From IMG/VR virus record IMGVR_UViG_3300048928_000190, positions 1 through 62,422 of that record: a stretch of DNA of 62,422 nt; one strand, written 5' to 3'. This DNA is from a virus. The position numbers and the translations under genes were made by a program. The stretch's first letter is position 1. Each line of letters starts with the position of its first letter. A model generated the notes under the pieces. The model saw nothing but the letters and a program-made list of their open reading frames with translations, was not told the origin of the DNA and searched no databases. Below are positions 162 through 60,607 of the stretch, one piece after another.

Positions 162-1541
162 ATGCGAGCTTTCATCTACTGCCGAATTTCCGCCGACCGC
201 GAAGGTGCTGGTCTCGGTGTTGAGCGGCAACGAAAAGACTGCGAACAGTTAGCGGAAACACTCGGTTGGACTATCGCCGGAACATTCACCGATAACGACT
301 TGTCTGCGTATTCGGGTAAGCCTCGACCGGCTTACAACGAGATGTTGGAGTCAGTTGAGGCGGGTCAAGCTGGCGCGATCATTGCATGGCATACAGACAG
401 GTTGCATCGTTCTCCCGCCGAGTTGGAGACTTTCATTTCTTTGTGTGATCGGGCGAGTGTTGTTGTTCGTACTGTGCAGGCTGGGGAGTTGGATTTGTCT
501 ACGCCGGCGGGGCAGATGACGGCGCGGATTGTTGGTGCGGTTGCGCGGCATGAGATTGATCATGCGCGTAAGAGGATGGTGGCGGCTCATGCTCAGGCGG
601 CGGAGAAGGGGCGTGCGCATGGGAAGATTCCGTTTGGGTATGCGGCTGTCCGGGATGATTCTGGGGCGATTGTTTCTCGTGTGCCTGATCCGGTTGAGGC
701 TGGTTTGGTGAGGGAGGCTGTGGCCCGCGTTTTGGGGGGTGAGGCTACGCGTGCGGTGACTCAGGATTGGGCGGGTCGGGGGGTGTTGACTCGGTCTGGT
801 GGTGTGTGGAATCCGCGGTCTTTGCGTGAGATGTTGATGCGGCCGACGTTGGCTGGTTTGCGGGCTCATCGTGGTTCGGTGTCCCGGGGGGAGTGGGAGC
901 CGATTATTTCTGAGGGTGAGCATGTGCGGTTGGTGGCGTTGTATTCGGATCCTTTGCGTCGTACGAATCGGGGGACGGGTGTTCGGCATTTGATGTCGGG
1001 GATTGCGTTGTGTGGTTTGTGTGGGTCGGGGGTTCAGCGGTTGAAGTCGGGTGGGTATCCGGCGTATGCGTGTGCGGGTTGTACGCGGGTGTCTAGGTCG
1101 GTGCGGCTGGTTGACCAACTGGTGGAGGAGATGATCATCCAGAGGGCGAACTTCGCTGACGCAGAGAAGAGTTTCATGAGGTCTAAGCCGAAGGTTCCGG
1201 GCGCCGAGGACGAGCTACTGTCTCTTACCTCCAGGCTGGACACTGCAGCGGACATGCTGGCTGATGGCGATCTAGACCGAGCTGGGTATCAGCGGATTCG
1301 TGATCGTGTTGCGCCTCGTATCGCCGAGTTGAAGAAAGCGACTGCCCCCAGTGCGGATCATTCGGCGTTGGCACAGATGGTGGCAAGTGATGACAAGCCT
1401 GGGTACTGGAGTCGCATCAAGGTCGAGACAAAAAGGGAGATCGTTCGGTCTCTTTTTGATGGAGTGATCATCTTGCCCGCCAAAGGGATTGAACGCGATC
1501 AGTGTCTGTGGTTTGTGTGGACGGACCACTCAAGGCCGTAG
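162..1541 (+). CDS. int: Large serine integrase (phage site-specific recombinase)
   Basis: The 459-residue protein catalyses integration and excision. The N-terminal resolvase domain starts RAFIYCRIS, with Ser10 as the expected nucleophile and conserved arginines in YCRIS and DRLHR. A recombinase domain follows (about residues 150-250, GKIPFGY onward). A zinc ribbon is formed by Cys284, Cys287, Cys304 and Cys307, then a coiled-coil segment (about 345-400) and a C-terminal tail. Domain order and length match large serine integrases. It lies directly beside attL, as expected. No clear ribosome-binding site precedes the ATG at 162. In the circular phage its upstream region would be the attP right-end sequence, so expression may differ between integrated and excised states. 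Confidence 0.97.
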   Translation: MRAFIYCRISADREGAGLGVERQRKDCEQLAETLGWTIAGTFTDNDLSAYSGKPRPAYNEMLESVEAGQAGAIIAWHTDRLHRSPAELETFISLCDRASVVVRTVQAGELDLSTPAGQMTARIVGAVARHEIDHARKRMVAAHAQAAEKGRAHGKIPFGYAAVRDDSGAIVSRVPDPVEAGLVREAVARVLGGEATRAVTQDWAGRGVLTRSGGVWNPRSLREMLMRPTLAGLRAHRGSVSRGEWEPIISEGEHVRLVALYSDPLRRTNRGTGVRHLMSGIALCGLCGSGVQRLKSGGYPAYACAGCTRVSRSVRLVDQLVEEMIIQRANFADAEKSFMRSKPKVPGAEDELLSLTSRLDTAADMLADGDLDRAGYQRIRDRVAPRIAELKKATAPSADHSALAQMVASDDKPGYWSRIKVETKREIVRSLFDGVIILPAKGIERDQCLWFVWTDHSRP

Positions 1542-1606
1542 GTCCCTTTAATCTTCAATTACGTGCGCATGTCGGCGTGATGGTGTACCAATTAGGTCAG
1601 CAATGT

Positions 1607-1622
1607 TCGAACGAATGTTCGA
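1607..1622 (+). promoter_or_regulatory. LexA/SOS box (perfect mycobacterial-type palindrome)
   Basis: TCGAAC-GAAT-GTTCGA matches the established mycobacterial LexA consensus TCGAAC-N4-GTTCGA without mismatch. It lies 30 nt upstream of the ATG of the 72-residue HTH gene and points toward the 3' end of the repressor gene. Binding by the host LexA is inferred from the motif. Confidence 0.8.
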
Positions 1623-1651
1623 ACACTTGATCGAAAGTAAGGTGGTACCCC

Positions 1652-1870
1652 ATGCCAACACGGGATCCTCTCAGGGCCGCACTCGCCACAGACAGCAAAT
1701 CAGGCCTGCACGTCATCGCTCGGATGTTATGCAGGCCTGCGGCTGAGGTAGAGCTGAAACTGGATGGAGCGTTGCCATTCACATTGTCGGAGATAATCGT
1801 CTTAGCTGATCATCTAGGGATGGATTGGAAGCTGTTACTCGCCGATTGCGGCGAGGGCGCGGTCCACTAG
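1652..1870 (+). CDS. Small HTH protein under SOS-box control, convergent with the repressor
   Basis: The 72-residue protein has the fold signature of a minimal Cro/XRE-like DNA-binding protein: two helices around HVIARMLCRPAAEVELKL, then PFTLSEIIVLADHLGMDW. It resembles the Cro-like protein encoded at 2184. An AAGGTGG ribosome-binding site (1639-1645) is well spaced before ATG 1652, and a perfect LexA box lies just upstream. Its last 36 nt overlap the repressor gene on the opposite strand, so its transcript would be antisense to the repressor mRNA. A role as SOS-induced antirepressor or alternative Cro is inference. Confidence 0.7.
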   Translation: MPTRDPLRAALATDSKSGLHVIARMLCRPAAEVELKLDGALPFTLSEIIVLADHLGMDWKLLLADCGEGAVH

Positions 1871-2071
1871 TTCCGCAAGATCCTCTTTGAGCGCTCCGCA
1901 GATTGCGGCCATCTGGCTAATGTCTGCGGGGCGTTCTCCGTTTTCGATGCGCTGCAAGGTGCGCACACCAACTCCGCTGAGTTCAGCGAGCTTGTCACGG
2001 CTGTATCCCGCACGGGCACGGGCACCGCGCACCTCAGCGCCAAGCGCTTCATTGAGTTTCTGGATGTCCAT
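1835..2071 (-). CDS. XRE-family immunity repressor
   Basis: The 78-residue single-domain HTH protein starts MDIQKLNEALGAEV, with the helix-turn-helix at about residues 24-45 (YSRDKLAELSGVGVRTLQRI). It lacks the C-terminal cleavage or dimerisation domain of lambda-type repressors, so RecA-stimulated self-cleavage is not possible. The start is placed at 2071 rather than at the upstream in-frame ATGs, because a TACAAT -10 box (2078-2083 on the minus strand) puts transcription initiation almost exactly at this ATG, implying a leaderless mRNA. It is divergent from the Cro-like gene with operator-like repeats between. Confidence 0.83.
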   Translation of the reverse strand: MDIQKLNEALGAEVRGARARAGYSRDKLAELSGVGVRTLQRIENGERPADISQMAAICGALKEDLAELVDRALAAIGE

Positions 2072-2077
2072 GTGGCC

Positions 2078-2105
2078 ATTGTAGGCCATATTTCGGCCCA
2101 AATGG
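2078..2105 (-). promoter_or_regulatory. Leftward repressor promoter with operator O1
   Basis: On the minus strand a TACAAT -10 hexamer (2078-2083) lies 6 nt before the ATG of the repressor. Upstream, 2090-2105 contains GGGCCGAAAT read leftward, a copy of the sequence repeated at O2 and O3. No strong -35 is seen. An operator between the promoter elements suggests autoregulation. Confidence 0.6.
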
Positions 2106-2183: not shown

Positions 2184-2411
2184 ATGGTCCAAGTCGCCGA
2201 GTTCACGGCATCCTCAGTTCGAAGCTTGTACAAGCGTAGCGGGTATTCCATCGCATCACTTGCGGATGAGACTGGTATTCCTTTTACGACATTACGGCGA
2301 AGATGCTCGGGGGAGTCCCCCTTCAAGGTCCCTGAGTTGGTTCTAGTTTCATCCGTGTTGGGTGTTCCCTTCCGAGATTTGGTGTCGATTCCCAGTTCGG
2401 AGGCTGCATGA
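2184..2411 (+). CDS. Cro-like HTH regulator
   Basis: The 75-residue protein starts MVQVAEFTASS and has an HTH at about residues 20-40 (YSIASLADETGIPFTTLRRR), followed by PFKVPELVLVSSVLGVPF. It is the first gene of the rightward early transcript. ATG 2184 is chosen over ATG 2163 because the latter overlaps the operator and -10 box, and 2184 coincides with the predicted transcription start. It probably competes with the repressor for the GGGCCGA operators; an excisionase role cannot be excluded. Confidence 0.78.
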   Translation: MVQVAEFTASSVRSLYKRSGYSIASLADETGIPFTTLRRRCSGESPFKVPELVLVSSVLGVPFRDLVSIPSSEAA

Positions 2412-19674: not shown

Positions 19675-19804
19675 CGAGCGGATCGTGGAGCCTGACCTTC
19701 TGCGGTTGGTCAGGAAGTTGCTGCCCGTATTCCCGCCGGATGACGGGACTGGGCAGCAGCGCATGCCAGTGAGGCAACTGTTGGATCGTTGCAGCGGACT
19801 GTAA
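19661..19804 (+). CDS. Small protein overlapping tRNA-Tyr
   Basis: TTG 19661 with GGGGA upstream gives 47 residues: MKRSSERIVEPDLLRLVRKL and so on, ending LLDRCSGL. The TAA stop is made of bases in the tRNA-Tyr anticodon loop, so the last 40 nt of the frame lie inside the tRNA gene. The amphipathic helix looks protein-like, but the overlap makes the call tentative. Confidence 0.35.
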   Translation: MKRSSERIVEPDLLRLVRKLLPVFPPDDGTGQQRMPVRQLLDRCSGL

Positions 19805-19849
19805 ATCCGTCGCCTTCGGGCATCGGGGGTTCAATTCCCTCCACTGTGC
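19765..19849 (+). tRNA. tRNA-Tyr (anticodon GTA)
   Basis: The anticodon arm is GCGGA-CTGTAAA-TCCGT, the D-arm GCAAC/GTTGC. A long class-II variable arm (CGCCTTCGGGCATC) and a T-arm GGGGG-TTCAATT-CCCTC follow. The acceptor pairs well only over five inner positions (CAGTG with CACTG); the two terminal pairs are mismatched as drawn, or paired with one bulged T. No encoded CCA. Confidence 0.85.
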
Positions 19850-19851
19850 AC

Positions 19852-19925
19852 TTGGGGTTGGTGAAGTGGTATCACGACGGTCTCCAAAACCGTAGTCGCG
19901 AGTTCGATCCTCGCACCCCTTGCCA
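19852..19925 (+). tRNA. tRNA-Trp (anticodon CCA), 3' CCA encoded
   Basis: The anticodon arm is ACGGT-CTCCAAA-ACCGT, the D-arm GTGA/TCAC, the T-arm GCGAG-TTCGATC-CTCGC. The acceptor is TTGGGGT against ACCCCTT: five pairs form, but pairs 1-72 and 2-71 are T-T mismatches. Discriminator G and CCA follow at 19922-19925. It is separated from tRNA-Phe by one base. Confidence 0.9.
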
Positions 19926-19926
19926 T

Positions 19927-19999
19927 GGCAACGTAGCTCAGTTGGTAGAGCGCTCGGTTGAAGCCCGAGAGGTCGCAGGTTCGAACCCTGCCGTTGGCA
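19927..19999 (+). tRNA. tRNA-Phe (anticodon GAA)
   Basis: The acceptor GGCAACG pairs with CGTTGGC except for a G-G mismatch at 2-71. The D-arm is GCTC/GAGC, the anticodon arm CTCGG-TTGAAGC-CCGAG, the T-arm GCAGG-TTCGAAC-CCTGC. CCA is not encoded. It is the third aromatic tRNA in the row. Confidence 0.92.
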
Positions 20000-20050
20000 C
20001 GTTTATCTCTCCATCAATCAATCGCCTTCAACTTCGAATCTTGGTGCGCC

Positions 20051-59998: not shown

Positions 59999-60083
59999 TC
60001 GTTGATGGGGCCGAGTTGGTCTTCCCTTACCCTCCCGACCCCGCAGATGCGACGCTACCATTCATCGAACAGATGTGCGAACG

Positions 60084-60596: not shown

Positions 60597-60607
60597 ATGA
60601 ACCAGTA
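60597..60607. repeat. attR core (11-bp direct repeat with attL)
   Basis: ATGAACCAGTA repeats the attL core. Phage sequence is to the left and the N-terminal permease sequence to the right. A phage-side arm GTACTGTGAC at 60572-60581 mirrors GTCACTGTAC (133-142) beside attL when the circle is closed. Confidence 0.88.

Follow-up and report, generated by a model that had tools for sequence, protein, structure and literature searches.

Background

Many small repressors of actinobacterial phages lack a RecA-cleavable domain. In enterobacterial phages, LexA-controlled antirepressors are small proteins that inactivate the repressor after DNA damage: the Gifsy antirepressors GftA, GfoA and GfhA are under LexA control and bind non-cleavable repressors (PMC3121763). 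These proteins, together with Tum (phage 186) and AntC (phage N15), resemble the locus described here both in LexA repression, which is predicted for it, and in the possession of a repressor without a cleavage domain (PMC3121763). We propose a similar mode of action for it. A second relevant protein is Mor of TP901-1, a helix-turn-helix (HTH) protein that has no DNA binding of its own and acts by binding the repressor CI; how the SOS response reaches the TP901-1 switch is stated to be unknown (PMC11149083). Finally, the TF-smORF modules described in polylysogens, those of phage VP882 (Qtip) and phage 72, are phage-encoded systems in which a small protein inactivates the master repressor (PMC10432266). 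The TF-smORF modules are driven by a phage transcription factor and are SOS-independent (PMC10432266), in contrast to the host LexA control predicted here.

The locus lies at 1607-1870 of the window (the whole stretch of DNA that was analysed, 62,422 bases). We consider it to be probably an antirepressor unit under LexA control that forms part of the immunity region of a prophage, with a rough probability of 0.6. Its position is unlike that of the Gifsy genes, which belong to an operon with dinI and lie beyond the immunity region: in the window, the small gene is inside this region, where it converges on the repressor gene and overlaps it, and its product is Cro-like. Tum is also different, as it is fused to a DinI-like half. 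Mor, which is found in TP901-1 and in staphylococcal phi13, is like the window protein in being a small protein of HTH fold paired with a repressor, and the TP901-1 CI resembles the window repressor in having no protease domain. However, Mor occupies the place of Cro in its switch, whereas the window has a separate Cro at 2184-2411 and carries the additional gene in convergent orientation behind a LexA box. No family match was found between the small protein and the enterobacterial LexA-controlled antirepressors, and a profile search of PDB sequences did not find the Mor chain. The module resembles a mix of the enterobacterial antirepressors and Mor and is, by position or sequence, a member of neither group. 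Both LexA-controlled and HTH-type antirepressors are known already; their combination, the position in the immunity region and the half-domain forms discussed below appear to be new, and no description of the module in actinobacterial phages was found in open-access papers.

Prophage ends and immunity region

The window contains a prophage with host flanks on both sides. The prophage cuts an amino-acid permease-like reading frame in two, leaving one part at each end (the host permease fragment on the left precedes the core at 117-127), and dapD and dapE adjoin. The dapD-dapE flank is 77% identical to genome G276, which was found by a search of the class of an actinobacterial locus; this places the host among the actinobacteria, near G276. 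Three consecutive tRNA genes (Tyr, Trp and Phe) are present within the prophage at 19765-20000. Inside the left end, the order is serine integrase (162-1541), small gene (1652-1870), repressor (2071-1835) and Cro-like gene (2184-2411).

117-127, no strand: left attachment core ATGAACCAGTA, 11 bases, with a second copy at 60597-60607
60597-60607, no strand: right attachment core ATGAACCAGTA, a repeat of the left core
162-1541, plus strand: serine integrase, 459 aa (Pfam Resolvase 1.6e-31, Recombinase 1.4e-8; phrog_95 integrase)
1835-2071, minus strand: immunity repressor, 78 aa, consisting of one XRE domain and lacking a cleavage domain (Pfam HTH_31 1.1e-11, HTH_3 3.4e-11)
2078-2083, minus strand: TACAAT, from its sequence the likely -10 element for transcription of the repressor gene, 6 nt before the repressor ATG
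2093-2105, no strand: operator-like half copy TCGGCCCAAATGG, direct repeat
2131-2146, no strand: operator-like copy AATCGGCCCGGAGGGG, direct repeat
2155-2170, no strand: putative palindromic operator CGGCCCAAATGGGCCG, between the -35 element TTGACA (2147-2152) and the -10 element TAAAGT (2171-2176)
2184-2411, plus strand: XRE gene, Cro-like, served by the divergent early promoter, 75 aa, ATG at 2184 (phrog_4583 6.1e-16, HTH_3 1.7e-7)

The original prediction, made from the sequence of the window, included a 78-residue repressor without a self-cleavage domain, and this is what was found: Pfam identifies the HTH domains HTH_31 and HTH_3 only and no peptidase domain, and the structural model has a pLDDT of 94.1. 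A RecA-cleavable domain is likewise absent from the small phage repressors examined here. The TAAAGT element ends 7 nt before the ATG of the Cro-like gene; the repressor mRNA is probably leaderless, and the mRNAs of the two genes both look so. Judged by its sequence, the immunity region is of the ordinary two-promoter type, and no route involving RecA-driven repressor cleavage is visible. Induction of the non-cleavable repressor by release of LexA would be the natural reading of this arrangement. A search across 1400-2500, including the region between the convergent genes, found no terminator-like hairpin.

LexA boxes and the promoter of the small gene

1592-1597, plus strand: TTAGGT, a possible but weak -10 element, suggested by TAGGGT/TAAGGT at the equivalent position in Arthrobacter relatives
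1607-1622, no strand: perfect LexA box TCGAACGAATGTTCGA, an exact consensus match whose position is conserved in relatives
1619-1634, no strand: second LexA box TCGAACACTTGATCGA, one mismatch, overlapping the first and also present in the sister contig L003
1639-1645, plus strand: AAGGTGG, ribosome-binding-site-like by its sequence, 6 nt before the start codon
1652-1870, plus strand: small convergent gene, 72 aa, ATG, encoding a Cro-like XRE protein and proposed LexA-controlled antirepressor (ORF, family alignment and predicted fold)
1835-1870, no strand: convergent overlap of the two coding regions, 36 nt, from the coordinates and present in relatives too

A perfect LexA box of the mycobacterial type had been predicted before the small gene. 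When the 62,422-base window was scanned, TCGAACGAATGTTCGA at 1607-1622 proved to be an exact match and the sole perfect occurrence of TCGAAC-N4-GTTCGA. The small gene starts 29 nt beyond it, and the ribosome-binding site that had been claimed is present as AAGGTGG. That prediction described a single box and overlooked the second, overlapping one at 1619-1634. The promoter region of the small gene consequently holds two LexA boxes, one perfect and one with a single mismatch, both of them sequence matches and conserved in relatives. No promoter was identified upstream of the small gene by a sigma-70 scan.

Sites with one or two mismatches from the same consensus are located upstream of lexA in genomes G276, G127 and G116, which are relatives of the host; they include TCGAACGCCTGATCGA and TCGAACAGGTGATCGA, which share the half GATCGA with TCGAACACTTGATCGA. 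Because the lexA genes of these relatives carry such sites, the consensus is likely bound by the LexA of the host group. LexA control of the convergent gene, as originally predicted, is strongly supported by this similarity of lexA promoters in related hosts and by the conservation of box, gene and overlap across phage lineages (discussed below).

Three other LexA-like boxes were observed. The first, TCGAACAGATGTGCGA at 60065-60080, near the right end of the prophage, has one mismatch; boxes like it, ending in GTGCGA, are present in G002, G007 and G008. The second is a perfect box between divergent Cro-like and repressor-like genes of genome G116 (L065:1807-1822), and LexA may therefore control the early promoter directly at that locus, a different SOS wiring. 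The third, also perfect, precedes a metallopeptidase gene in the lysogeny region of Rhodococcus phage Mbo4 (L078:159-174). Repressor-cleaving peptidases are a known induction route, so this box may be another SOS link.

Recurrence in viral contigs and phages

A search of viral contigs with the repressor identified a near-identical sister (L003) and seven contigs with 53-63% identity (L004-L010), so that repressor identity to the window ranges from 53 to 99% over the eight. A LexA-like box with 0-1 mismatch is present just past the 3' end of the repressor gene in all eight contigs, and a convergent XRE-like gene of about 70 residues in seven (the remaining contig, L009, was examined for the box only). 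Annotated phages were reached by searches with the repressors of L007 and Arthrobacter phage Sarge. The combination of repressor, convergent ORF and a box with 0-2 mismatches was found in ten Arthrobacter phages (Sarge, Bauer, Hestia, ArV2, Zucker, Shoya, BrayBeast, Judy, RootBeer and MargaretKali), in the Rhodococcus/Prescottella phage ReT1v-1 and in the Propionibacterium phages Anatole and E6. The Maja box has three mismatches. At 17 of 18 loci, the best box upstream of the small gene differs from the consensus by 0-2 mismatches; by chance, about 0.005 such sites would be expected per 100 positions. For Sarge, Bauer, Hestia, ArV2, Maja, Zucker and Shoya, the 3' end of the small ORF reaches 24 nt into the repressor gene.

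Small gene by name: Sarge gp31, Bauer gp42, ArV2 gp33, Zucker gp41, Shoya gp38, Maja gp31
L077, 3217-3351: small gene of ReT1v-1 (a Prescottella equi phage), 44 codons, unannotated

The small gene is also unannotated in Hestia, BrayBeast, Judy, RootBeer and MargaretKali, and the public phage records in which it carries no annotation are L077 (ReT1v-1), L205, L210, L211, L212 and L213. Annotation is improved by these results, since public records leave the gene unannotated or call it a hypothetical or HTH protein.

In a survey of 241 perfect boxes in viral contigs, XRE genes had their 3' end facing the box in 11 cases and their start facing it in four. Contigs L158 and L263 are likely further cases of the module, and L292 and L157 are uncertain ones. 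Another six contigs from the LexA-box surveys of viral contigs (L112, L161, L167, L129, L152 and L264) were set aside, as no XRE-like ORF is present between box and gene. As the loci are related, these module counts are not independent.

Other searches did not recover the module. An initial tblastn search of phages with the small protein gave nothing significant. In a GTDB scan with the repressor alignment, most hits were XRE proteins of enterobacteria and clostridia, about 40% identical, and the module was absent. Genomes near the presumed host, taken at the level of class (395), genus (37) and family (401), were searched with a profile of the small protein and gave weak XRE hits only. One of these hits, L082:878-1144 (genome G729), is a convergent XRE-like gene that overlaps a repressor gene in the same way, without any LexA box.

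These results bear on a chance origin of both elements, in which the box would be a coincidental match and the ORF a by-product of the antisense strand. Sequence rich in GC often contains long antisense reading frames, and the box at 60065 is another one-mismatch site in the window. However, a 3 Mb sequence simulated with the first-order base transitions of the window contained no perfect box, so that none is expected in 62 kb (sites with at most one mismatch are expected at 0.19 per window in the same simulation), and box, start and overlap recur across several phage lineages. This recurrence is strongly against chance, which we reject as an explanation with almost no probability left to it. 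The arrangement is real and beyond chance, and it is recurrent in actinobacterial phages rather than a peculiarity of one prophage.

The position of the small gene directly downstream of the integrase and on the same strand could point instead to another SOS-coupled step: excision, with the product acting as a directionality factor for the adjacent integrase, or a brake on early genes. The integrase next to the module is of the serine type in the window and the sister contig and of another type in L004-L010, and the module is found beside both serine and tyrosine integrases; in several Arthrobacter relatives, excise is annotated as a gene of its own. A recombination directionality factor was rejected because the gene is not tied to one integrase type, and the wider idea of another SOS-coupled step is improbable.

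The small convergent protein

The gene had been predicted to encode a 72-residue HTH protein converging on, and overlapping, the 3' end of the repressor gene. The overlap is present (36 nt at 1835-1870), as are the ORF and a predicted five-helix XRE fold, but the HTH match at the level of sequence is weak: the best hits are phrog_4583 (E 0.3) and Pfam BetR (E 0.099), and no Pfam HTH model is matched over its cut-off. AlphaFold2 predicts, with moderate confidence (pLDDT 76.5, pTM 0.63), five helices in XRE order at residues 6-13, 19-26, 30-37, 45-55 and 59-64, giving an XRE/Cro-C1 fold with an HTH. In a Foldseek comparison with the PDB, XRE proteins make up almost all of the best matches; their probability is high and TM about 0.6-0.7, but the E-values are not significant (at least 0.098).

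Conservation within the window family differs between this protein and its neighbours. Mean pairwise identity in the small protein is 0.37 for the turn and recognition helix, 0.58 for the loop and helix 4 and 0.54 for helix 5; the values for the same regions are 0.76, 0.45 and 0.42 in the neighbouring Cro and 0.71, 0.84 and 0.49 in the repressor. The recognition helix is the least conserved part of the small protein, the opposite of Cro, and the loop and helix 4 are the most conserved. Compared with Cro, the difference is clear (bootstrap fraction 0.0015), whereas the difference between regions of the small protein by itself does not reach significance (p 0.06). The residues compared in the small protein, 38-61, are essentially clear of the overlap with the repressor gene. 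Helix 5 opens with an invariant Asp-Trp in the small-protein family, which the neighbouring Cro proteins do not have.

Selection on the gene was estimated from dN/dS. Between the window and its sister the value is 0.66 for the small gene, based on six changes, which are too few to show constraint (the repressor value is 0.03). In most pairs of relatives, dN/dS of the small ORF is 0.18-0.62, suggesting moderate selection.

Full-length and half-domain forms

The small proteins of Arthrobacter phages occur in two forms. Those of Maja, Zucker and Shoya have the HTH region; the short form of Sarge, Bauer, Hestia and ArV2 retains just a stretch like TVRELGELAELHGLRLLDVI, corresponding to helices 4-5. 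Helices 1-3 are absent from these four and from ReT1v-1. The last 21-25 residues of Zucker gp41, which has a full HTH, are 64-67% identical to the Hestia, Bauer and Sarge proteins, suggesting that the HTH half was lost (or gained) while helices 4-5 were retained. Several half-domain ORFs are weak as XRE relatives in a profile test, with L263 and L157 not above background; true XRE genes in the background keep the values of this test from falling below about 0.004.

One interpretation of the small protein is that it is a second Cro under LexA control, binding the operators of the repressor and either competing with the repressor or blocking its synthesis. The XRE fold is predicted, the window-family protein is nearer to Cro than to the repressor (p 0.004 with the Cro profile, p 0.18 with the repressor profile), and the window family, like Maja, Zucker and Shoya, has the HTH region. 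Nevertheless, the recognition helix is the least conserved part and does not have the TTLKRR pattern kept by Cro, and the proteins of Sarge, Bauer, Hestia, ArV2 and ReT1v-1 have no helices 1-3 at all, making a second Cro unlikely. Since the DNA-reading helix has been neglected or discarded in evolution, contact with the repressor through helices 4-5 is likelier than binding to the operator. The most likely role of the small protein is that of an antirepressor, to which the variable or missing recognition helix and the retained helices 4-5 lend indirect support.

Alternatively, the LexA-controlled promoter might work mainly by transcription, with an antisense transcript lowering repressor synthesis and the ORF being secondary. 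The convergent overlap is retained in nearly all good cases and there is no terminator-like hairpin between the genes; on the other hand, an XRE fold or half-fold and a start codon after an SD-like sequence have been retained, and the dN/dS values between most relatives also count against this reading. Transcription as the main mode of action is slightly less likely again than a second Cro. As a second effect alongside the antirepressor, antisense transcription over the repressor gene, also part of the original prediction, is possible: with no terminator found between the genes, the transcript probably hinders repressor synthesis as well.

Proposed mechanism

From the boxes, gene order, overlap, recurrence, predicted fold and conservation pattern, we infer LexA occupancy, binding of the small protein to the repressor, induction and an antisense effect in the following course. 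In the lysogen, the 78-residue repressor would shut the divergent early promoter at operators of the CGGCCCAAATGGGCCG type, while host LexA would shut the small convergent gene at one or two overlapping boxes. DNA damage would remove LexA, and the small Cro-like protein would be made. This protein would bind the repressor, most likely via helices 4-5, forming a mixed dimer unable to hold the operator; with the repressor disabled, the early genes would be turned on and the prophage would wake. Less repressor would probably also be made in cis, as the same transcript would run antisense to the repressor gene or its transcription would collide with that of the repressor.

A broader and more tentative reading, which we regard as possible though less probable than the unit itself, is that these loci represent a widespread class of Cro-related, SOS-induced antirepressors in actinobacterial phages, many of them half-domain, in which one LexA-controlled transcript both poisons the repressor and silences its gene. 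As part of that same tentative reading, the half-domain forms, consisting of helices 4-5 without the DNA-reading half, could act as dominant-negatives.

The module offers a concrete answer to the question of how prophages with non-cleavable repressors sense DNA damage across several phage groups. This answer covers isolated, genome-sequenced phages of Arthrobacter and Propionibacterium, along with many related viruses whose hosts are soil and dairy bacteria. The half-domain forms, if functional, would rank with the smallest antirepressors in nature, and the repressor switch would be poisoned by a fragment of its own fold.
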